Made by a program: the position numbers and the translations under genes. The notes below the pieces were generated by a model that was not told the DNA's origin, made no database searches, and saw only the letters and a program-made list of their open reading frames with translations. Shown here in pieces: positions 47,114 through 58,349 of a DNA stretch of 64,000 bases (its first letter is position 1; the number at the start of each line of letters is the position of its first letter). This DNA comes from Planctomycetota bacterium (lineage in GTDB: Bacteria > Planctomycetota > UBA1135 > UBA2386), in NCBI GenBank assembly GCA_016794565.1, contig JAEUHQ010000128.1, positions 1 to 64,000 of the forward strand, in the 5' to 3' direction.

Positions 47114-48417
47114 CGGCGGGCCTCCTGTTCCATCTGCTTGCGCAGGTACTCGACCGCCTCGCTCTTCGTCTTGTTGCACTTCGCGGAGTCGCAACTCAGT
47201 TTCTCCGCGGCGTTGGCTCCGCTGCGCAGCATGTAGTACGTCGTCATGGCGTCCTTCGGCTGCTTCAGACTCTCCCGCAGGGACCTCCGGGTGATCGGCG
47301 CCGGTTGCGGGGAATGCAGCGTGTTCTGTTCCCGAACCGACTCGAGCAGCGTCTTTGCGGCAGTGAGTCCAGTGCGCTCGTAGCCGAGGCGGAGGGAGGG
47401 CGGGCTTGTGGCGCCGTACAACGCCTGCACGACGCTGTTCCATTGCGCCGGTGTGAAGTCCGTCTCGGCGACCTTGCCCGCCGGCGGTGGAAGTGAAGGC
47501 GACACCTTCTCCGATGCGTCGAGGGGAAACAGGATGTACGTCGGCGCGCCGCCGGCGTCGGTGCCCGCGAGCATCTGCACGCAGGAATCCGTCAGCAGCA
47601 GCGACACGGCCGGAGGTTTGCCGCCGGAGATCCGAGACAACCGCTGCGGGTGCAGGCTGTGGCGAACGCGCCGTGCCATGTCGGGATAGCCGAGGAAGCA
47701 GACGACGTTGGCGTCCTGGGCGACGACTTCGTTCGCGATGCGGTCCGGGTCCCAGGTCGCGGACGTCACCGCGAGCTTCACGAGGAGATTCCCCGCCGCC
47801 TGTTCGACCATGTACTCGAGCGGCAAGACGTAGTCGCGGATCGCGGCGTCGTCCTCGTACACGAGGAGGCAGCGCGAACACTTCAATTGACGCAGCGCCA
47901 CTTCGACCGCAGCGGCCTGCAGTGCGTCGCTCGCGATCACGCGCGTGATCCCGGCCTCGTCGCCGCCCTCGTCGTTGCGATCGATGAGCACGCTGGTCGA
48001 GACGGGCAGCACGACCGGGATGCCCGCGGCCCGATACACGGGATAGGCCGCTGCAGTGCACGTGGAACTCGTGTGGCCGACGACGGCGACGACTGCCGGG
48101 TCCGCGGCGAATCGCTTCGCGAGCGTCAGTGCGCGTTGCGGGTCCTCGTTGTCGTCCCACCATTCGAACTGGAATCCGCTCAGCGCGTCGTTGTCCGAGA
48201 GAAGGGACGCGAAGCCGGCCGCCATCGCGGGGCCGCTGATCACTTCGCGGTTGCTGAAGTCCTGTGCGGTCACGGTCCGGCCGGAGCCGGCGACTCCGCG
48301 GCCGACGATCACGATCTTCGGCTTTGCGTCCTTCGACAGTGGTCGAGGTTCGTCCGAACTGGCGAAGATCGCGGTCAGGATCGCCGCGAGTCCCGCGGCA
48401 GAGGTGCGTTCGTTCAT
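47110..48417 (-). CDS. Leu/Ile/Val-type periplasmic-binding protein (PBP1 fold) without ABC genes
   Basis: 435 residues from ATG 48417. A weak signal peptide (Ala/Leu/Ile-rich, ending near Ala-Ser) leads to a two-lobe type 1 binding fold: Ile-Val-Ile-Val-Gly-Arg, Gly-Pro-Ala-Met-Ala-Ala-Gly, Arg-Ala-Leu-Thr-Leu-Ala-Lys-Arg-Phe, Val-Val-Gly-His-Thr-Ser-Ser, Tyr-Arg-Ala-Ala-Gly-Ile-Pro-Val, Val-Tyr-Glu-Asp-Asp. The Cys-x-x-Cys in the middle (Lys-Cys-Ser-Arg-Cys) is unusual. Such proteins normally feed an ABC transporter, yet the overlapping neighbour is a small membrane protein with no ABC features. A receptor role is a fair alternative. Confidence 0.75.
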   Translation of the reverse strand: MNERTSAAGLAAILTAIFASSDEPRPLSKDAKPKIVIVGRGVAGSGRTVTAQDFSNREVISGPAMAAGFASLLSDNDALSGFQFEWWDDNEDPQRALTLAKRFAADPAVVAVVGHTSSTCTAAAYPVYRAAGIPVVLPVSTSVLIDRNDEGGDEAGITRVIASDALQAAAVEVALRQLKCSRCLLVYEDDAAIRDYVLPLEYMVEQAAGNLLVKLAVTSATWDPDRIANEVVAQDANVVCFLGYPDMARRVRHSLHPQRLSRISGGKPPAVSLLLTDSCVQMLAGTDAGGAPTYILFPLDASEKVSPSLPPPAGKVAETDFTPAQWNSVVQALYGATSPPSLRLGYERTGLTAAKTLLESVREQNTLHSPQPAPITRRSLRESLKQPKDAMTTYYMLRSGANAAEKLSCDSAKCNKTKSEAVEYLRKQMEQEARR

Positions 48418-48737
48418 GGGCGTTTCACGACGAGCCGGGTCCGGCTCGACAAGGCAAGGGTGAAGGGGACGAACCGGGCGCCGCGGACACGAGGTGGCGG
48501 CGGTGGCACGCCGCGTCCGTGGGGGTGGAGGGTCCGGTCGCTCTCTCCCGTGAGGCCGGCTCCCTTCGTAGGTACCCGGCCGCCTTACCGGTCCCGCCCG
48601 CTGCGCGAGGCCCGCCGAGGAGCATCGCCTTGTCCACCAAGAGCTTCGGCGCCCGGCGAGAAATTCGCGCGCTGCCTTTGCGCGGCCTTGCGCACCCCGG
48701 TGCGCGGCGCCTGTCCCGCGTTCCCGCTCAGGCAGGC
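48418..48737. other. Intergenic region, 320 bp
   Basis: No convincing coding frame on either strand; frames that remain open are Arg/Pro-rich shadows. A hairpin at 48690-48705 (GCGCAC, loop CCCG, GTGCGC) lies 33 bp before the alpha/beta-hydrolase start. Divergent promoters for the binding-protein operon and the hydrolase should lie here, but no clear -35/-10 pair was found. Confidence 0.6.
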
Positions 48738-49736
48738 ATGAAGACACGAATGCGAGCGATGGCGGTGGCGCTGGCGGCGATGCTCGGCACTGGCTGCTCG
48801 ACGTCCGGCGAGCGAACCACTGCGGCCCCACACGAGACGCTGCCGGCCGGGTGCGAGGCGCGGGTCGCGCGCGTCGGTGACGTCGACGTGCGGTACCTGG
48901 TCGCGGGCAAGGGTGATGCGGTCGTTCTGCTGCACGGGTACGCGCAGACGAGCCACATGTGGCTGCCGCTGATCGAGGTGTTGAGCCGCGACCACCTGGT
49001 GATCGCGCCCGACCTGCGCGGCGCCGGCGGTTCGTCGAGACCCGAGTCGGGCTACGACAAGAAGACGATGGCCGCCGACGTGCACGCCCTCGTGCGTTCG
49101 CTCGGCATCGAGCGCGCGGCGATCGTCGGCCACGACATCGGCCTGATGGTCGCGTACGCCTATGCGGCGCAGTTCCCCGCGGCGACCGAGCGGGTCGTCC
49201 TGATGGACGCGTTCCTGCCGGGCATCGGCGAGTGGAAGGACGTGTGGTTGATGCGCGATCTGTGGCACTTCCACTTCCACGGCGAAGTCCCCCTCGCCCT
49301 CGTCGCCGGGCGCGAACGGATCTACTTCGAACACTTCTGGAACGACTTCGCCGCGGACCGTTCGCACAGCGTGTCCGAAGCGGACCGGGTGCTCTATGCG
49401 GCCGCGTACTCGCAGCCCGGAGCGATGCGGGCGGGGTTCGAGTACTTCCGGGCGTTCGAGCAGGACGCCAGGGACTTCGCGGCCATGGCGCAGCAACCGC
49501 TGTCGATGCCCGTGCTGGTCATCAGCGGCGAGAAGGCGAGCGGGCAGGTCCTGGTGACACAGACGCGGCTCGTGGCGAAGGACGTGCGCGGCGAAATCGT
49601 TCCCGGCGTCGGTCACTGGCTGATGGACGAAGCGCGACAGAGCGTGGTCCCGCGCATCGCCGCGTTCGTCGCGGAGGCTGGCCCGGCTGCGATGCAGCCG
49701 ACGAACACAGGGGCGGCGCGCGCATCCCGGGGATAG
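48738..49736 (+). CDS. Alpha/beta hydrolase lipoprotein, dehalogenase/epoxide-hydrolase type
   Basis: 332 residues with lipobox Gly-Thr-Gly-Cys. The nucleophile elbow reads Val-Gly-His-Asp-Ile-Gly, with Asp rather than Ser, as in haloalkane and fluoroacetate dehalogenases and epoxide hydrolases. Leu-Leu-His-Gly-Tyr is the oxyanion side, Asp-Leu-Arg-Gly-Ala-Gly-Gly-Ser is typical of epoxide hydrolases, and the base is in Gly-Val-Gly-His-Trp-Leu. An epoxide- or halide-type substrate at the membrane surface is expected. It lies 10 bp before the DedA-rhodanese gene, so they may be co-expressed. Confidence 0.85.
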   Translation: MKTRMRAMAVALAAMLGTGCSTSGERTTAAPHETLPAGCEARVARVGDVDVRYLVAGKGDAVVLLHGYAQTSHMWLPLIEVLSRDHLVIAPDLRGAGGSSRPESGYDKKTMAADVHALVRSLGIERAAIVGHDIGLMVAYAYAAQFPAATERVVLMDAFLPGIGEWKDVWLMRDLWHFHFHGEVPLALVAGRERIYFEHFWNDFAADRSHSVSEADRVLYAAAYSQPGAMRAGFEYFRAFEQDARDFAAMAQQPLSMPVLVISGEKASGQVLVTQTRLVAKDVRGEIVPGVGHWLMDEARQSVVPRIAAFVAEAGPAAMQPTNTGAARASRG

Positions 49737-49746
49737 CGTCCCGGCG

Positions 49747-50706
49747 ATGCAGGAGTTGTCGGACTTCCTCGTCGGGCACGGCTACGTCGTGGTGTTCTCC
49801 TGGGTGCTGTTCGCGCAGGCGGGTGTGCCCGTGCCCGAGGTCCCGCTGCTCCTCGTCGGCGGTGCGCTCGCGGGGGCGGGTCGCCTCGATTTCGCCGCGC
49901 TGCTGCTCCTCTCGGTCGCCGCTTCGGTTCTCGGCGACTCGGTCTGGTACGCGCTCGGCCGCCGATACGGCGCCGGTGTCCTGGGCCTCTTGTGCCGGGT
50001 GTCGCTCGAGCCCGACTCGTGTGTGCGCCGCACCCGCGAGACGTTCGCGCTCCGCGGCGGATCGACGCTGGTGTGGGGCAAGTTCGTGCCGGGGATCGCG
50101 ACGGTGGCGCCGCCCATGGCCGGGCTGTCGCGCATGCCGTTCGCGAGGTTCTTCGTGCTGACGGCAGTCGGCGCGTCGGCATGGTGCGCGGTGTGGCTCC
50201 TGCTCGGGTACGCATGGCACGATCGGCTCGAGCGGATGGCCGAAGGCGCCGCGGCGACCGGCGGCTGGCTGCTCGCCGCGTTCGTCGCGGTGATCACCGC
50301 CTGGATCGGTGCGCGGTGGGTGCGGCGATGGCGCTTCCTGCACGATCTCCGCGCGGCCCGCATCGCGCCGCACGAACTGCAGCGACTGCAGACCGAGGGC
50401 ACGCCGGTGTTCGTCGTCGACCTCCGGCACGCGGAGGACTTCGCCGCGGACCCGCACGTGCTCCCCGGCGCCCTGCGGATCGACGCCGAGGATCTCGCGG
50501 CGCGCCACGTCGAGATCCCGCGCGATCGCGACATCGTCCTCTACTGTACGTGACCCAACGAGGCGACGAGCGCCCGTGTGGCGCTCCTCCTGCACGGTCG
50601 CGGCATCACCCGCGTGCGTCCGCTGCTCGGCGGTCTCGGCGCCTGGCGGGACGCGGGCTTCCGGGTCGATCGGGTCGACGACTCCCCCGACGCGTCATCG
50701 CGCTGA
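49747..50706 (+). CDS. DedA membrane protein fused to a rhodanese domain; predicted selenoprotein (Sec269)
   Basis: 319 residues when the TGA at 50551-50553 is read as selenocysteine. The DedA/SNARE-associated domain (about 1-200) has several membrane spans and the family motif Lys-Phe-Val-Pro-Gly. A rhodanese domain follows from about 215 (Val-Phe-Val-Val-Asp-Leu-Arg, Leu-Pro-Gly-Ala-Leu-Arg-Ile). It reaches Ile-Val-Leu-Tyr-Cys267-Thr-Sec269-Pro-Asn-Glu-Ala, then Thr-Ser-Ala-Arg-Val-Ala-Leu and Val-Arg-Pro-Leu-Leu-Gly-Gly-Leu-Gly-Ala-Trp to the true stop at 50706. Known DedA-rhodanese proteins have Tyr-Cys-x-Cys-Pro-Asn-Glu-Ala here, so Sec replaces the second Cys. A SECIS-like hairpin follows. 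Ending at the TGA would delete half of the rhodanese domain. It may be a redox or sulfur/selenium transfer protein; substrate unknown. Confidence 0.85.
50568..50586 (+). promoter_or_regulatory. Predicted bacterial SECIS of the DedA-rhodanese gene
   Basis: Fourteen nt after the UGA comes GAGCGCC, loop CGTGT, GGCGCTC: seven perfect Watson-Crick pairs. Loop positions 2-3 are GU and the fifth is U, as in the selW element (GGTCT). Spacing, stem and loop length are identical to those of that element. Confidence 0.8.
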
Positions 50707-50738: not shown

Positions 50739-51494
50739 TCACTGCGCCGTGAAGCCGCCGTCGACGGCGATGGTCTGCCCGGTGACGAACGACGCCTGCG
50801 GCGAACTCAGCCACACGACCGCGTCCGCGATCTCCTCGGGCTTGCCGACCCGGCCGATCGGGTGCAGGGAGGCCAGGAGGTCGCGCGGCACCGACTCGGT
50901 GAACCGGTCGAACATCGGCGTCTCGATGGCCGCCGGCGCCACCGCGTTCACCCGGATGCCCTGCTTCGCGTACTCGAGCGCCGCGTTCTTCGTGAGGCCG
51001 ATCACCGCGTGTTTGCTCGCGACGTAGGGCCCCGCGCCCGGCATGCCGATCAGGCCGGCGACCGAACTCGTGTTGACGATCACGCCGCCGCCGCCGCGCA
51101 GCATCGCCGGGATCTCGTGCTTCAGGCTCAGGTAGACGCCCTTCACGTTGATCGCGAACACACGATCGAAGTCGGCGTCGTCCTGTTCGGCGGTCGGCTT
51201 CACGACCGCGCTCTCGATGCCGGCGTTGTTGAACGCGATGTCGAGGCGGCCATGGGCGCGCAGTGTCGCCGCGACGAGGTTCTTCACGTCCGCGTCGTTC
51301 GCGACGTCCGCGCGGACGAAGGTGGCGGTGCCGCCGGCCTTCTCGATCAGGGCGACGGTCTCCTTGCCTTCCTTCTCGCGACGTCCGCTGACGACGACCT
51401 TGGCGCCGGCGCGGGCGTAGGCGATGGCGGTCGCGCGGCCGATGCCGCTGGTTCCGCCGGTGACGAGTGCAATCTTGTCCTGCAGGGTCTTCAT
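50739..51494 (-). CDS. Short-chain dehydrogenase/reductase (SDR)
   Basis: 251 residues. All classical SDR motifs are present: Thr-Gly-Gly-Thr-Ser-Gly-Ile-Gly, Phe-Asn-Asn-Ala-Gly-Ile, Ser-Ser of Val-Asn-Thr-Ser-Ser-Val-Ala, Tyr-Val-Ala-Ser-Lys and Val-Ala-Pro-Ala-Ala-Ile. Similar enzymes reduce cyclohexanone-, glucose- or acyl-type carbonyls; the substrate cannot be told. It lies downstream of a TetR gene on the same strand, and a TetR-like palindrome sits 26 bp before its start, over a TTGACC -35-like sequence, so regulation by that TetR is likely. Confidence 0.88.
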   Translation of the reverse strand: MKTLQDKIALVTGGTSGIGRATAIAYARAGAKVVVSGRREKEGKETVALIEKAGGTATFVRADVANDADVKNLVAATLRAHGRLDIAFNNAGIESAVVKPTAEQDDADFDRVFAINVKGVYLSLKHEIPAMLRGGGGVIVNTSSVAGLIGMPGAGPYVASKHAVIGLTKNAALEYAKQGIRVNAVAPAAIETPMFDRFTESVPRDLLASLHPIGRVGKPEEIADAVVWLSSPQASFVTGQTIAVDGGFTAQ

Positions 51495-51520
51495 GGTTCT
51501 GTTCGGGTTCGGTCATTCCG

Positions 51521-51532
51521 GACCGATCGGTC
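51521..51532. promoter_or_regulatory. Putative TetR operator upstream of the SDR gene
   Basis: GACCGATCGGTC is a perfect 12-bp palindrome of the form often bound by TetR proteins. Read toward the SDR gene, it overlaps TTGACC, a -35-like hexamer. The sub-sequence GATCGGTCA (51525-51533) recurs with one change as GAACGGTCA (52181-52189) in the promoter of the tetR gene. Confidence 0.55.
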
Positions 51533-51582
51533 AAAAATTGATCGGAGAAGAGCGGAGGGAGTGGATCGGTGGACGGGCGGCG

Positions 51583-52164
51583 TCAGCGCGCGAGTGCGGC
51601 GACGGCCTGGTCGCGAAGCGCCTGCAGCTGCCGGCGGGTCGCGCGCTGCTTCCCGAGCACGTTGATCGCGACGACGATCCCGAGCAGGAACGTGGCGAGC
51701 GCGCGCGGGTCGGCCTTGCGCGGGATCTCGCCGAGGGTGCGCGCACGATCGAGCGTGGCCGCGAGCAGCGACTCCATGCGTTCGTGATGCTGGCGCAGCA
51801 GGTCGGCGACCGATTCGTCGTGCGGGGCGAGTTCGATGTTGGCGTTCACGCACAAGCAGCCGCGCCGGCCGTCGCGGGCCGTGTGCCGGAGCACTTCGTC
51901 GAGGAACTCGACGACCGCGCGATACGGCGACGCCGCTCCGGCGAGGTGTGCGGTGAGCTCTTCGAGAGTCTCGTGCTGGTAGCGGCGCAGAGCCGCGAGG
52001 TAGAGCGAGTGCTTGTCGCCGAAGGTCGCGTAGAGGCTCGCCTTCTGGATTCCCATGGCAGCGACCAGGTGCTGCAGCGAAGTCGCGTCGTAGCCACGCT
52101 GCCAGAACACCTCGAGGGCTCTCTGCAGGGCGTCGTCGACGTCGAACTCCTTGGGGCGGGCCAC
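51583..52164 (-). CDS. TetR-family repressor
   Basis: 193 residues from GTG 52164, giving the usual Val/Met-Ala-Arg-Pro-Lys-Glu-Phe-Asp start; the frame continues upstream but would cover the promoter. The helix-turn-helix reads Ala-Leu-Glu-Val-Phe-Trp-Gln-Arg-Gly-Tyr, Thr-Ser-Leu-Gln-His-Leu and Lys-Ala-Ser-Leu-Tyr-Ala-Thr-Phe-Gly-Asp-Lys. The C-terminal domain has a Cys-Leu-Cys-Val-Asn-Ala-Asn segment, seen in the AcrR/YxaF-like subgroup. It likely represses itself and the SDR gene 88 bp downstream; operator-like sites are found before both genes. Confidence 0.85.
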   Translation of the reverse strand: MARPKEFDVDDALQRALEVFWQRGYDATSLQHLVAAMGIQKASLYATFGDKHSLYLAALRRYQHETLEELTAHLAGAASPYRAVVEFLDEVLRHTARDGRRGCLCVNANIELAPHDESVADLLRQHHERMESLLAATLDRARTLGEIPRKADPRALATFLLGIVVAINVLGKQRATRRQLQALRDQAVAALAR

Positions 52165-52174
52165 GAGGGCGCGG

Positions 52175-52202
52175 ATACTAGAACGGTCAGTACGGAATGC
52201 AA
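52175..52202 (-). promoter_or_regulatory. Promoter of the tetR gene with operator-like half-site
   Basis: On the minus strand, TTGCAT and TAGTAT are 16 nt apart and lie just before the GTG at 52164. The spacer holds TGACCGTTC, matching the TGACCGATC half of the palindrome before the SDR gene at 8 of 9 positions. The promoter call is inference from sequence. Confidence 0.45.
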
Positions 52203-52524
52203 GCCGCTTCCGAGGTCGATGCACCCCGGACCGTCGCCGGCGCCCGCGATCGTCTCGCGCGGTCCGCCGCGCCGAGGTTGCCTCGTGCGGGTGCGCAGCG
52301 GGAGTCCGGCGGTGTCCCGGGTCGCGTCGTGGTGCTCACGCGCGTTCGGCCGGCTGGCATGCAACGGGCGAGAGCGCGCGACCCGTCGGCGAACGAGGCG
52401 TGCAAACCTGCGGTTGAGGCGTCGGCTCGCCGCGGGCTTTTGGTACCTTGTCGGGCTGCCCTGGTCGGGCGGCGGCGGTTCCACTCTTGGCGTCGACACA
52501 CGACCGGCCGACACGAGACCCGCG

Positions 52525-55500
52525 TTGACCACCGATCCACAGTCCAGCCGACGACCGGCGCCGCGATGGCTGCGTCGCACGCTGCGCGTGCTGCTCATCG
52601 GCCTCTCGGCGCTGCTCGTGCTGCTGGTGATCGTCTGGTGTTTCCGCCGGCAACTGCTCGTGCCGGTCCTGCGGCCGCGGCTCGAGGCGATGATCCGGCA
52701 GGCGGTGCAGGCAGAGCGCGTGTCGATCGGCGCCGTGGGCGGCGACTGGCTCACCGGCATCGAGGTCGGCGACCTCGAGATCGCAGGTGCCGCGGCGCCG
52801 CCGATGTCCCTTCGTGGTGCCCGGATCGAAGCCGGATACTCGTTGTGGGACCTGTGGCGCGGCGACCCCCGCGGCCTGCGCGTCGCCAGGATCACGGTTG
52901 CCGAGGCCGATCTCGATCTGCGGACGGCGCTCGGCGAACCCGAACCCGAACCCGAACGCGAACGCGAATGCGCCGCGGGTGGCGCCTTCGACTTCGGATC
53001 GCTCGAGCCGTTGCTTCGTCTCTGCGCAGGCGGGGCCAGCGTGCACGTCGCGATGCTGCGTCTGCAGGCGCCCCAGGGGGAACGCGCCGGGCCGCTGATG
53101 CTCGAACTGCGCCCGGGCACCGAGGCGCGCGAACTGGTCGCGAGTTTGGCCGGCGTCGACCTGGAGGTGCGGATGGCCGCGGCGTCGCCGGCAACTGCGC
53201 CGATCACGGCCCGCGTCGACGTGCGGGACCCGGGGGCGTTGCTGGACCTGTTCGGCCTCGGCGCGGGCGTGCGGGGCGGTTCGATGCACGCCGAGGTCGA
53301 CGTTCGCGGCGAGCCTTGGCGCCTCGACACGCGCGTCGACCTGACCGATCTCGTGCACGGCGGCCAGCGTCTCGCCTCGAGCCACGTCGTTGCCCACCTG
53401 GACGGCGGCGGACTCGCCGTCGAGAGTGCATCGATCGATCTGCCCGGGGTCGCTGCCGAACTGCGGGCAGTGAGCGTGCCGGGTGTGTTCGCGGGCGGTG
53501 CCGACCTGTGGCAGGGCCTCACGGGACGGTTCGCCGTGCGCATCGACGACTTGTCGGACCACGCGGCTCTCCTGCCGGCCTCCTGGCGCACGCTGCTGCC
53601 GATCCGCGGCGAACTGCGCGGCGACGCCGAGAACGGCCGTCTCCGGTTGAACCCGTGCCATCTCACCGCGCGCGGCGCCGACCTGCAGATCGAACGCGGT
53701 TCGTTCCCTCTGGTCAGCGCCGACTGGCGGGTCGCCGAGGGTTCGCTGCGCGGGACGCTGACCCTCGACGGGTTCACCCAGGACCTGCCGTGGCTCGGCA
53801 CCACCACGGCCAACGGGCGCGTGGTCGTCACGGTGTCCGGCAGTGCGCGGGCCCCGCACGCCGCGGCCGAGATCGATCTGGGTGCGTGCCGGAGTGCGCG
53901 CGGATCGCTGGCTGTCGCGCGCGGCACGGTGCGGATCGACACCGATGCGATCGTGGCCGAGCGACTGCGGGTCGAGGATCTGCGGATCGCGGCCGTGGCC
54001 GGCGAGGCTTCGACGCACGTCACGGTCGACGCGACCTGTCGGTTGCGCGACGGCGAGGTCGATCCCGACTCGCTGCGCACGCACATCGAAGCGTCCAGCG
54101 CGGTGCTCGCGGACCTGCTGGCGCCGCACTTCGCCGAGGCAGGGTTCGGTCCGGCGCCGTCCGGCGAAGCGACGCTCGAACTGGTCGCGCGGCACGACGC
54201 GGGCGGCCTCGCGATCGACGCGTTGCGCCTCCGCACCGCGGCGTCCTCACCGATCCGGATCGACCTCGTCGGCGAAGGCGTGCTGCCGCTGCACTGGTCG
54301 GGCGCGGCGCTGCGAGCCGTGGATGCGGGCGAGTTCGTGCTGCGCGCCCGAGTCGAGCGGCCGGCCGCCGAAGCGCTGCCGGCGCTCGCGTTCCAGGGCA
54401 CGTTGCAGCTCGATGCTCGCTCGGCGAGCGCACGCGAACTCGTCGTCACGATGGGCGAGGCTTCGGTGCACGGCGAGATCGTGGCGGGCCAGGGATTCGC
54501 CGCGCTGCTCGACCCCGCCGTCGACTTCGCGGCGACGGCGCTGCGCGGCGAACTGTCCTTCGACGCCGTCGATCTGGCGGCGCTGCCCGCGAGCTGGTTT
54601 CCCGGCCTCGCGCTGCGCGGCAGGCTCACCGGTTCGTTGCGCGCCGCCGGCCCTGCCGGTCGGCTCGAACCTGAGATGCATGTGTCGTGGACCGAAGGCA
54701 GCCTGCAGGGTGGGGGCGTGCCGACCCTCATGGACGCCGCGGTGCGCATCGAACTGACGCCGGGCGAACCGGCGGCGCCGGCGATGCTGCTCACCGCGAC
54801 CGCGTCGGCTTCGCTCGCGCCCGAGTTCGCGCCCGACCGCGCGATCGCCCTCGCGTTCCGCCTGCGGTGCGACGAGAACGGCACGGTACTGGAGCCGACG
54901 ACCCTGAAGGTCGGCGGCGGCGAGGTCGCGATCGACCTCGCTTCGAACCTGCGGCGTGCCGATGTGCGCGCGCTGCTCGGCGGCGGCGGCGCGATCGGCG
55001 ACGCCACCCTGACCGGGACGATCGGCCTGCGCGCGTTCTCACTCGCCCAACTGCCGTCCGCGTGGGGCGGCAGCGGCGCGCTGCGCGGCGTCGTCGAGGG
55101 GGACGTCGTGCTGGACGGAACGCTCGCGAGCGTCGCCGGCCCGGCGATCGTCCGCAGCGGCACACTGCGGGTGCGCGACGGAGAGGGGAAGTTCGGCAAC
55201 CTGCCGCGGCTCGAGCACGTGGCGGCGGAAGTCGGGTTCACGCCGGGCGAACTGGCGCTGCGTTCGTTCACGGGAACGCTCGGTGCGGGCCGCCTCGAGT
55301 CGCAGGGCACGCTGCGCGCGCGCGGCGCGTCGTTCGCCGAATCCTGGGACGATGCCGCGCTCGACTTCCGACTCGCCGGAGACGACGTGCTGCTCTATCG
55401 CGCCGACGGCACCAAGGTGCGAGCCACCCTGAACGTCACCGCCACCGGCACCCTGCGGGCGATCGCGGTGGCGGGCGACGTCGAACTGGGGCGCGGCAGC

Positions 55501-56262
55501 AAGTTCGTGCGCCGCCTGTCTCTGCTTCCCGATCTCAGCGCCCGCGGCGGAGCCACCGCGCAGCAGGGGTTCACGTTGTTCGAGGTGCCGCCGCCGATCG
55601 GCGATCGCGTCACGTTCGACGTCGCGATCCAGACGCGCGAAGCCTTCGAGGTGCGAACGTCCGTGGTCGACGGCGACATCGAAGTCGCCGCGCGCCTGCG
55701 CGGCACGGCCGCCGCACCGCGGCTCGAGGGCAACCTGTCGGTGCAGGGCGGCACGTTGCGATTCCCGGGCGCCAACCTGCGGATCGAGAGCGGTCTCCTG
55801 ACCTTCTCACCGAGCGAACCGTCGTTCCCGCAGTTGCTGCTCCAGGCCGAAGGCAAGCGCATGGGCATCGCGGTGTCGATGGCGGTCAGCGGTCGCTACG
55901 ACCGACCGCAGGTCGTGTTGTCGTCGGTGCCGCCGCTGCCGCCGGAGGATCTCGTCGTGCTGCTCTCGACCGGTCAGCTGCCGAGCACGCTCGCGGGGCG
56001 CGGGTCCGAAGGGCAGGCGCGTTTCGTGGGCGGTTACCTCGCGAAGGAGATCTTCGAGAGCTACTTCGGCAGCGACAGCACGGAGAAGGGCAGCAGTGCG
56101 TTCGATCGCCTGACGATCGAGAGTGGCCGCGAGGTGAGCAAGAACGGCGTCGAGAGCGTGCTGGTCGAGTACGAACTGCTCCCGGACTTCGCGGTGCAGG
56201 CGGAGCGCGACCAGCACGAGGACTACAACCTGGGCCTGGTGCTGCGATTCCGGTTCCGATGA
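52525..56262 (+). CDS. tamB: TamB-like translocation/assembly or lipid-transport protein
   Basis: 1245 residues from TTG 52525 (Thr-Thr-Asp-Pro-Gln follows); no better start is near. A basic N-terminus and one transmembrane helix (about 20-42) precede the AsmA/TamB-type beta-rich body. It repeats Val-Arg-Ile-Glu, Leu-Arg-Gly-x-Leu and Gly-x-Val-x-Val strands over about 1100 residues, forming a long beta-taco groove. A Glu-Pro/Glu-Arg tandem (about 138-148) is an odd insert. The C-terminal DUF490 domain ends in Leu-Gly-Leu-Val-Leu-Arg-Phe-Arg. It overlaps the Omp85 gene by four bases. It should bridge inner and outer membrane, with roles in barrel assembly or phospholipid transport. Confidence 0.85.
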   Translation: MTTDPQSSRRPAPRWLRRTLRVLLIGLSALLVLLVIVWCFRRQLLVPVLRPRLEAMIRQAVQAERVSIGAVGGDWLTGIEVGDLEIAGAAAPPMSLRGARIEAGYSLWDLWRGDPRGLRVARITVAEADLDLRTALGEPEPEPERERECAAGGAFDFGSLEPLLRLCAGGASVHVAMLRLQAPQGERAGPLMLELRPGTEARELVASLAGVDLEVRMAAASPATAPITARVDVRDPGALLDLFGLGAGVRGGSMHAEVDVRGEPWRLDTRVDLTDLVHGGQRLASSHVVAHLDGGGLAVESASIDLPGVAAELRAVSVPGVFAGGADLWQGLTGRFAVRIDDLSDHAALLPASWRTLLPIRGELRGDAENGRLRLNPCHLTARGADLQIERGSFPLVSADWRVAEGSLRGTLTLDGFTQDLPWLGTTTANGRVVVTVSGSARAPHAAAEIDLGACRSARGSLAVARGTVRIDTDAIVAERLRVEDLRIAAVAGEASTHVTVDATCRLRDGEVDPDSLRTHIEASSAVLADLLAPHFAEAGFGPAPSGEATLELVARHDAGGLAIDALRLRTAASSPIRIDLVGEGVLPLHWSGAALRAVDAGEFVLRARVERPAAEALPALAFQGTLQLDARSASARELVVTMGEASVHGEIVAGQGFAALLDPAVDFAATALRGELSFDAVDLAALPASWFPGLALRGRLTGSLRAAGPAGRLEPEMHVSWTEGSLQGGGVPTLMDAAVRIELTPGEPAAPAMLLTATASASLAPEFAPDRAIALAFRLRCDENGTVLEPTTLKVGGGEVAIDLASNLRRADVRALLGGGGAIGDATLTGTIGLRAFSLAQLPSAWGGSGALRGVVEGDVVLDGTLASVAGPAIVRSGTLRVRDGEGKFGNLPRLEHVAAEVGFTPGELALRSFTGTLGAGRLESQGTLRARGASFAESWDDAALDFRLAGDDVLLYRADGTKVRATLNVTATGTLRAIAVAGDVELGRGSKFVRRLSLLPDLSARGGATAQQGFTLFEVPPPIGDRVTFDVAIQTREAFEVRTSVVDGDIEVAARLRGTAAAPRLEGNLSVQGGTLRFPGANLRIESGLLTFSPSEPSFPQLLLQAEGKRMGIAVSMAVSGRYDRPQVVLSSVPPLPPEDLVVLLSTGQLPSTLAGRGSEGQARFVGGYLAKEIFESYFGSDSTEKGSSAFDRLTIESGREVSKNGVESVLVEYELLPDFAVQAERDQHEDYNLGLVLRFRFR

Positions 56263-58349
56263 GCGTCGTCGTCCGCCGCGAATCTCGAGGCCTCCCGTTC
56301 GCCCTCCTGCTCTGCGCGGGATGCAGCGTGCTGGACCCGGGCTACCTGGCGGACACGCCGGGCCGCTCCGGCAGGCCCCCGGTCGAAGTGACGGTCGACG
56401 TCGTCGGCAACGACGGCCTCGGCGAGGGTCTGCTGCGGAAACAGGCCGAGGACCACCTGTTCGATCTGTCGCGCGATCCGACCCGCGAGTCGGCAGCCTA
56501 CGACGCCGCCATCGAGATCGAGGATCGTTATCGCAGCGAGGGCTACCCCGTCGCGAAGGTGCGCTACGAGTACACGCCGCCGGCCGACGAGGGGCCGTGG
56601 CCCGCGGCAGTGCACGTGCGGTTCGTCGTGGAGGAGGGGCCGCTGGTCACCGTCGAGATGACGTTGCGCGGCAACGTCGCGTTCGGCACCGCCGAGCTGC
56701 TGTCCCTGTGGACCCGAAAGCGCGTCGGCGCACTGAGCCTCGGCGGCACGGCGTTCGTCGAGGCCGAAGTGCATGCGTTCGCCGAGCAGCTGCGCACGTT
56801 CTATCGCGGCCACGGCCGCCTCGACGCGACGGTCGACGAGCCTCGCATCGAGGTGGACCTCGCCCGAGCCTCCGCCAAGGTCGCAATCGAGATCCGCGAA
56901 GGACCCGTGCACACCATCGCTGCAGTCGATGTCGCGCCGGCGTTGCGCGAACTCCTCGGCGACGAACTGCCGCCGCCGCCGGTCGGTGCGATCTACACGC
57001 CGGCGGCGGCGGAGGACTATCGCGTCGCGCTGCGCTCCGCGCTGCGTCACCTCGGGCATGCCGATCCGCGCCTCGACGTCGAGGCGACGCCGATCGCCGG
57101 TGCGCCCGCCACGTGGCACGTGCGCGTCGACGGCGACGCCGGGCCCGTCAGCACCATCGCGTCGGTGATCGTCCGCGGGAACGACAAGACGATGGATGCG
57201 GTGGTCCTCGGCAAGATCGATCTCGCGGCGGGAGATCGCTACGACGGCGCGAAGATCGACGACGGCCTGCGGCGCCTCTATCGCGGCGGTCTCTTCCGCA
57301 AGGTCACGGTGCTCGAGACTCCGGTCGCGAACGACGCCGAACGGATCGATCTGGCGGTCCAGGTGGACGAGAATCCGTCGCGGGCGCTCGAGTTCCTGGC
57401 GGGCTACGGCTCGTACGAGCAACTGCGCGGCGGCCTTCGCTTCGAGGAGCGCAACCTGCTCGGCACCGGCCGCGGCATCGCGTTCGACAACCGCCTGTCC
57501 ATGAAGGGTTACTCCACCGGGGTCACCGCGACGGACGACGACTTTCTCGGCACCGGTTCGACGCTGAGCGTGGGCGCGGAGTACTTCCGCCGCGAGGAGC
57601 CGTCGTTCACCGACGAAGCGGCCGGCACGACCACGGCGCTCGCGCATCCGCTGGCGGAGGGTCTGACGGCGCGCATCGGCTACACCTATCGCAACCGCAC
57701 GGGCGCCAGCGCCTTCACCGCGCTGCCGCGCGACCAGCTCGTCGACTACGTCGAGGGCAAGGTGTTCGTCGAGTTGCGCAACGACCGGCGGGACAACCTG
57801 CTCTTCCCGCGGCGCGGACATGCCGAGTTCCTCTCGTTCGAGAGCCTCGATCCGGCGTTCGGCTCGAGCGTCGATCTGGACCGGCTGTCGTTCCGCACCG
57901 CGCTGCACTTCGCCCTTTGGGAGCCGGTGCACCTCGTGCTGCGCAGCGAGCAGAGTGCCCTGTGGCCGCACGAGGGCGGCGCGCTGGTGCCGTTGCAGGA
58001 GCGCTGGTTCAGCGGCGGCGAGAGCTCGGTGCGGTCGTACCGCGAGTCGCAGCTCGGCCCGCGGGACGCCGAGGGCAACCCGGTCGGCGGCCAGTTCGCG
58101 AACCTCTTCGGGGCCGAAATCCGGTTCCCGATCTGGAGGACGCTCGAAGCCGCTGTGTTCGCCGATGCCGGCAACGTCGGCGCCCGCGTACAGGACTTCT
58201 CGCTCGACGACATGGGCTACGGCGTCGGTGCCGGCCTTCGGCTCCTGTTGCCGATCGGACCGGTCCGTCTGGACTCGGCGTGGAACCCGGATCCGCTGCC
58301 GGACGAGCGCGGCTGGGTGCTGCATCTGGCCGTCGGCTACCCGTTCTGA
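56259..58349 (+). CDS. Omp85-family outer-membrane protein with lipobox (TamA/TamL-like)
   Basis: 696 residues. The N-terminus has Leu-Leu-Leu-Cys-Ala-Gly-Cys, a lipoprotein lipobox, unlike Escherichia coli TamA but like the TamL lipoproteins of Bacteroidota. Three or so POTRA domains follow (about 45-340; Val-Arg-Gly-Asn-Asp-Lys and Asp-Gly-Leu-Arg-Arg-Leu-Tyr-Arg-Gly-Gly-Leu-Phe are clear in the last). The barrel (about 350-696) has Glu-Glu-Arg-Asn-Leu-Leu-Gly-Thr-Gly, the loop 6 Val-Arg-Ser-Tyr motif (here Ser-Val-Arg-Ser-Tyr-Arg-Glu-Ser) and the C-terminal Phe. Together with the overlapping tamB-like gene it forms a TAM-like pair. Confidence 0.9.
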   Translation: MSVVVRRESRGLPFALLLCAGCSVLDPGYLADTPGRSGRPPVEVTVDVVGNDGLGEGLLRKQAEDHLFDLSRDPTRESAAYDAAIEIEDRYRSEGYPVAKVRYEYTPPADEGPWPAAVHVRFVVEEGPLVTVEMTLRGNVAFGTAELLSLWTRKRVGALSLGGTAFVEAEVHAFAEQLRTFYRGHGRLDATVDEPRIEVDLARASAKVAIEIREGPVHTIAAVDVAPALRELLGDELPPPPVGAIYTPAAAEDYRVALRSALRHLGHADPRLDVEATPIAGAPATWHVRVDGDAGPVSTIASVIVRGNDKTMDAVVLGKIDLAAGDRYDGAKIDDGLRRLYRGGLFRKVTVLETPVANDAERIDLAVQVDENPSRALEFLAGYGSYEQLRGGLRFEERNLLGTGRGIAFDNRLSMKGYSTGVTATDDDFLGTGSTLSVGAEYFRREEPSFTDEAAGTTTALAHPLAEGLTARIGYTYRNRTGASAFTALPRDQLVDYVEGKVFVELRNDRRDNLLFPRRGHAEFLSFESLDPAFGSSVDLDRLSFRTALHFALWEPVHLVLRSEQSALWPHEGGALVPLQERWFSGGESSVRSYRESQLGPRDAEGNPVGGQFANLFGAEIRFPIWRTLEAAVFADAGNVGARVQDFSLDDMGYGVGAGLRLLLPIGPVRLDSAWNPDPLPDERGWVLHLAVGYPF

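Follow-up and report, generated by a model that had tools for sequence, protein, structure and literature searches.

We analysed a stretch of 64,000 nt from the contig JAEUHQ010000128.1 of a Planctomycetota bacterium (hereafter the window) with regard to a gene for a DedA-rhodanese fusion protein, in which a single in-frame TGA interrupts the rhodanese domain. Reading of this codon as selenocysteine (Sec) would yield a membrane-anchored selenorhodanese. The gene and its elements are arranged as follows:

49747..50706, plus strand: predicted DedA (VTT)-rhodanese selenoprotein gene, 319 residues when read through one UGA; ATG at 49747, final stop TGA at 50704-50706
49831..50211, plus strand: VTT/DedA membrane domain, residues 29-155 (Pfam PF09335, E 3.7e-16; helical model)
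49993..50022, plus strand: Cys83-x8-Cys92 motif (LCRVSLEPDSC), from the alignment of fusions against DedA-only paralogues
50368..50652, plus strand: rhodanese domain, residues 208-302 (Pfam PF00581, E 4.4e-10; Foldseek best match 3tp9)
50545..50547, plus strand: Cys267 at the canonical rhodanese catalytic position (alignment to solved rhodaneses), invariant
50551..50553, plus strand: UGA codon 269, predicted Sec269
50568..50586, plus strand: putative bacterial Sec insertion sequence (SECIS) hairpin, 7-bp stem GAGCGCC/GGCGCUC, loop CGUGU 21 nt past the UGA

The TGA at codon 269 is the only internal stop of the 319-residue frame and is found in the translated context ...DIVLYCT*PNEATSARVALLLHGRGITRVRPLLGGLGAWR..., corresponding to YCT-U-PNEA at the active site, with 50 codons between it and the end of the gene. 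The Pfam rhodanese match (208-302) extends across it, and the GC content at the three codon positions is about equal before (0.75/0.51/0.91) and after the TGA (0.80/0.60/0.88). Against the nearest five of the Sec-form relatives compared, identity is 69-77% over residues 270-308 and 45-48% over the DedA part. From Pfam, a predicted fold model (predicted local distance difference test score 91.5) and Foldseek, the presence of an N-terminal VTT and a C-terminal rhodanese domain in one chain could be confirmed, the modelled rhodanese part matching the rhodanese domain of 3tp9 with a root-mean-square deviation of 1.5 (Foldseek). Alignment to solved rhodaneses places Cys267 at the start of the loop, where active rhodaneses carry their catalytic Cys, and Sec269 two residues further, giving the Cys-x-Sec active site that characterises the NCBIfam family NF041203. 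The loop CTUPNEAT is not of the classical six-residue CxxGxR type, being about 2 residues longer than that of 3tp9.

The source genome, a metagenome-assembled genome (MAG) of 5.07 Mb (92.84% complete, 223 contigs), contains the genes for both synthesis and decoding of Sec, with tRNA-Sec (76.5 bits), SelB (352 bits), SelA (462 bits) and SelD (353 bits) all matching above curated cut-offs. The selD gene (L018, G000:C35:10536-11453) adjoins selA and holds one in-frame TGA, at GSG-U-AAK, by which the host SelD is itself predicted to contain Sec. The contig of the window fits this genome, since four genomes of its family have orthologues (60-64%) of the Omp85 gene on this contig. From this family we additionally observed a rhodanese with TGA at the canonical Cys position (L103, G019:C30:165655-165921, minus strand; YVMYUGSGGRSS), probably a selenorhodanese of a UxxG type distinct from the CxU kind discussed here.

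Almost all of the 51 loci from a first search for relatives have Cys (YCTCPNEA), but this search favoured Cys forms, YCTCPNEA being among its patterns. Later whole-genome searches read through stops, which removed this bias. The fusion was found in 71 of 396 genomes of the Acidobacteriota (the phylum of the relative L051), and the codon aligned with the TGA of the window gene is likewise TGA in 32 of the loci read there, lying close to residue 269 wherever the copy is full-length, and Cys in nearly all the rest. Among 398 genomes of the Pseudomonadota (the phylum of L066), 22 contain the fusion, none with an internal stop. At the codon of Sec269, Cys is found without exception in the 58 non-Sec relatives that are full-length and have a CxC/CxU loop. 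The UGA is aligned with the Cys of its homologues, and its flanks are conserved on both sides. Of the 29 Sec-form genomes, 28 have SelB above the cut-off (the sole one without is G527), vs 1 of 21 Cys-form genomes (Fisher p 9e-12, species relatedness uncorrected). In the tree, the window protein groups with the Sec form L111 (54% identical, SH-like approximate likelihood ratio test 85), and up to nine changes between Sec and Cys are reconstructed, at least three of them forced.

The 32 TGA loci include one stand-alone rhodanese of 127 aa (L155:3556-3939, loop YCTUPNEATSAR), an apparent selenoprotein with a similar hairpin, whose genome also has a fusion copy. Further, five divergent Sec-fusion paralogues (L148-L151 and L154) have a changed Pro after Sec (UAREA, ULNEA, UQREA, ULREA, UAKDA) while Sec, Cys83 and Cys92 are all kept.

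The hairpin GAGCGCC-CGUGU-GGCGCUC begins 14 nt past the UGA. Bacterial SECIS elements are expected to have a loop of 3-9 nt located 16-37 nt from the UGA, a stem of 4-16 bp, G in the first two loop positions and a minimum free energy of at most -7.5 (PMC13188914). With a loop of 5 nt (CGUGU), a stem of 7 bp and a distance of 21 nt, the hairpin of the window agrees with every one of these constraints; the minimum free energy over the 45 nt after the UGA is -17.0 kcal/mol. Over 33 Sec forms, the mean stem amounts to 5.18 bp vs 1.63 bp after synonymous recoding with codons drawn from Cys forms, the top of 2000 simulations reaching 2.82 bp. The loop reads CG[GU]G[CU] in 31 of the 33 Sec forms, and its Arg codon (CGG/CGU) is kept in nearly all of them. 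In Cys forms, this codon frequently specifies Gln, Leu, Lys or Met instead, and the stem is wholly absent in 30 of 58. The single-sequence fold z-score of the hairpin (-0.22) is uninformative; synonymous recoding and the Cys-form controls were therefore used instead. An Rfam scan of the window gave no match, as is expected from the variability of bacterial SECIS elements.

The original prediction had described a TGA in the middle of the rhodanese domain with an open continuation of 50 codons, which is borne out by the frame translation, the Pfam match spanning the TGA and the codon-position GC content. It had further proposed that Sec replaces the second Cys of a Cys-x-Cys motif, with Cys homologues aligning to Sec269. 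The alignment with Cys could be confirmed in the 58 full-length relatives, and the replacement itself is supported by these together with the Sec machinery, the 32 TGA relatives, the SECIS hairpin and the co-occurrence of SelB. We are therefore highly confident, from comparative sequence evidence, that the gene specifies Sec at position 269 within a DedA-rhodanese architecture and that its CxU site has a redox role.

Beyond the active site, the fusions are distinguished by a second pair of thiols. Cys83 and Cys92 (LCRxSLxPDxC) are found in 89 of 90 fusion proteins and are both absent from E. coli YghB and from 24 of 24 DedA-only paralogues. In five proteins (L156, L158, L159, L160 and L164) the second active-site Cys is missing, and four of these five also lack Cys92 (joint loss p 9e-7, uncorrected for relatedness). 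These four, L156, L158, L160 and L164, are fusion paralogues with CSS or CAS in the loop, and L156 may be a broken copy, as it additionally contains a TAG in frame. The Cys83/92 loop and the segment that follows the final membrane helix both carry a net positive charge, which by the positive-inside rule suggests that this loop and the rhodanese both face the cytoplasm. Near-invariance of Cys83/Cys92 in fusions, their loss mostly together with the Cys at the Sec position and the predicted cytoplasmic location of both sites lead us to suggest, tentatively, a thiol/selenol relay from Cys267/Sec269 to Cys83/Cys92 between the two domains.

We propose a model in which the UGA at 50551-50553 would be decoded as Sec by SelB and tRNA-Sec, directed by the downstream SECIS hairpin, a step that is well supported. 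The product would be a protein of 319 residues, combining the DedA/VTT membrane domain with a rhodanese carrying the loop Cys267-Thr-Sec269. Cys267 would accept sulfane sulfur as persulfide, as other rhodaneses do, and Sec269 would attack this persulfide, leading to a Cys267-Sec269 selenenylsulfide under release of sulfide. The selenenylsulfide could then be re-reduced by the DedA thiol pair Cys83/Cys92, or the oxidation handed onward by it. Sec instead of Cys would be expected to quicken the resolving step, and the whole protein would not be a plain undecaprenyl-phosphate (UndP) flippase but a thiol/persulfide relay coupled to the membrane. In its widest form, the model describes an undescribed membrane selenoprotein family, common in Sec-using Acidobacteriota, in which the CxU rhodanese and the Cys83/Cys92 relay drive or gate DedA transport; this is conceivable, though we would not yet call it probable.

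Several observations weigh against parts of this model. Within the phylum of the window, the fusion gene occurs only in this genome (392 sampled). Together with the placement in the tree, this sole occurrence suggests that the window gene was acquired horizontally, in its Sec form, from Acidobacteriota. SECIS covariation is modest: by RNAalifold and pair counting, the score was reached by 9 of 500 shuffles, with double changes in only two pairs, since the stem hardly varies, and it is therefore the comparisons with recoded codons and with Cys forms that carry the case for the hairpin. As for the relay, L159 retains Cys92 despite its CNR loop, and L185 from the Pseudomonadota has a CVC loop but Thr at position 92.

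The membrane domain could instead transport a species of selenium or sulfur (selenite, sulfite, thiosulfate or polysulfide), which the CxU rhodanese would capture or reduce inside the cell. Rhodaneses are reportedly able to carry selenium as perselenide (in work cited by PMC5877670). In an Anaerolineaceae MAG, a Na+/H+ exchanger carries the same CTCPNEA rhodanese module at its C-terminus (L101:4401-5318). Fusion of this type of rhodanese is thus not confined to a single kind of membrane transporter, in line with a transport function. However, many of the DedA fusions are Cys forms in genomes without Sec use, which makes a selenium-specific cargo unnecessary. A neighbour search, based on a crude open reading frame caller in GC-rich DNA, revealed no transport or selenium gene conserved beside the fusions. 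We consider such a transport role rather unlikely.

Somewhat less likely still, Sec could be inserted in a protein that is mainly a COG0586-type flippase for UndP or other lipids, the selenorhodanese being a redox sensor or incidental. DedA-rhodanese fusions have been assigned to COG0586, with their link to UndP called unclear (PMC10127716), and the window protein shares the VTT membrane fold with the UndP flippases of this group (E. coli YghB, UptA) and weakly matches the DedA and UptA models. These scores lie far under the curated cut-offs (55.8 vs 236 and 40.9 vs 250). The residues described as essential in YghB-type UndP flippases (PMC10127716) are not matched in the window protein, where E39 corresponds to Ala, D51 to Val, R130 to Lys and R136 to Ala, although at 28% identity the alignment columns may shift. 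Almost the whole family lacks D51 and R136, and YghB in turn has no counterpart of the Cys pair. A simple flippase function thus does not appear to be supported, as far as this remote alignment allows.

That the TGA is a true stop truncating DedA, or a sequencing or assembly error for TGC or TGT, is very improbable: the source is a MAG of 223 contigs and TGA lies one base away from both Cys codons, but 32 relatives share it at the same codon, frame and protein conservation persist beyond it, and Sec forms retain the SECIS hairpin and co-occur with SelB. That near-cognate read-through or general recoding places another residue at the UGA, such as Trp or Cys, is even harder to credit, for although an open frame alone cannot distinguish Sec from another residue, UGA is not reassigned throughout, since the gene's own terminal stop is TGA, the genome has the complete Sec pathway, and the aligned residue is Cys in 58 of 58 CxC/CxU-loop relatives, the usual exchange partner of Sec.

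Rhodanese selenoproteins with a CxU site are known ("Rhodanese-like domain-containing protein form 3", PMC13188914 Table 1). The best NCBIfam match of the rhodanese part of the window protein, NF041203 (rhodanese_LYCAU; E 1.7e-19), has its Sec at the same place two residues past the canonical Cys (LYCxU). Its curated cut-off of 115 bits is reached neither by the window protein (69.8 bits) nor by the other fusions tested and the stand-alone L155 (79.2-90.2 bits), and its model spans 126 positions without a membrane domain, whereas the rhodanese of the window forms the C-terminal part of a DedA fusion and has a CTUPNEA loop. Cys forms of the DedA-rhodanese fusion have been reported as well (PMC10127716, PMC12893004), for example PA1209 of P. 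aeruginosa (PMC12893004). These proteins ("DedA family protein/thiosulfate sulfurtransferase GlpE") have the same domain order, and the sequences compared share the Cys83/Cys92 motif and, apart from the exchange of Sec for Cys, the active-site loop (CxC); most of them lack the SECIS hairpin, and those from Acidobacteriota are mostly found in genomes without SelB. TsoB (NF045694, PMC13188914), described as rhodanese/DsbD fusion-like, likewise combines a rhodanese selenoprotein with a redox-type domain in the membrane, but from its description in the review table, on which this comparison is based, it differs in its membrane domain and in its UxxxxU motif.

No DedA/VTT protein is listed among the 119 selenoprotein families of the 2026 review (PMC13188914), the deep-Sep paper makes no mention of DedA, and NCBIfam 20.0 holds no matching model of a Sec DedA-rhodanese. 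Within these sources, the earlier statement that no description of a Sec-containing DedA-rhodanese fusion is known therefore holds; full protein databases were outside the scope. The novelty lies in the membrane fusion, its spread and the Cys83/Cys92 pair, the CxU active-site motif being already known. A protein family of membrane-transport type is thereby added to the selenoproteome, on evolutionary evidence going well past a single reading frame. Such genes would be truncated at the UGA by standard annotation, with loss of the rhodanese active site. For DedA-rhodanese fusions in general, the pairing of Cys83/Cys92 with Cys267/Sec269 constitutes a testable redox hypothesis, and the recurrent natural exchange of Sec and Cys provides matched pairs for gauging the contribution of selenium.

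Upstream of the fusion gene, one further open frame lies in the same direction:

48264..49736, plus strand: neighbouring open frame with an alpha/beta-hydrolase gene (Pfam Abhydrolase_1), ending 10 nt before the DedA start

It is possible that this frame and the DedA-rhodanese gene share a transcript. Just 3' of the fusion gene, the region 51424-58349 (plus strand) holds a long frame up to 56262, which is TamB-like by eye, followed in the same direction by the Omp85 gene at 56259-58349, which contains a POTRA repeat.
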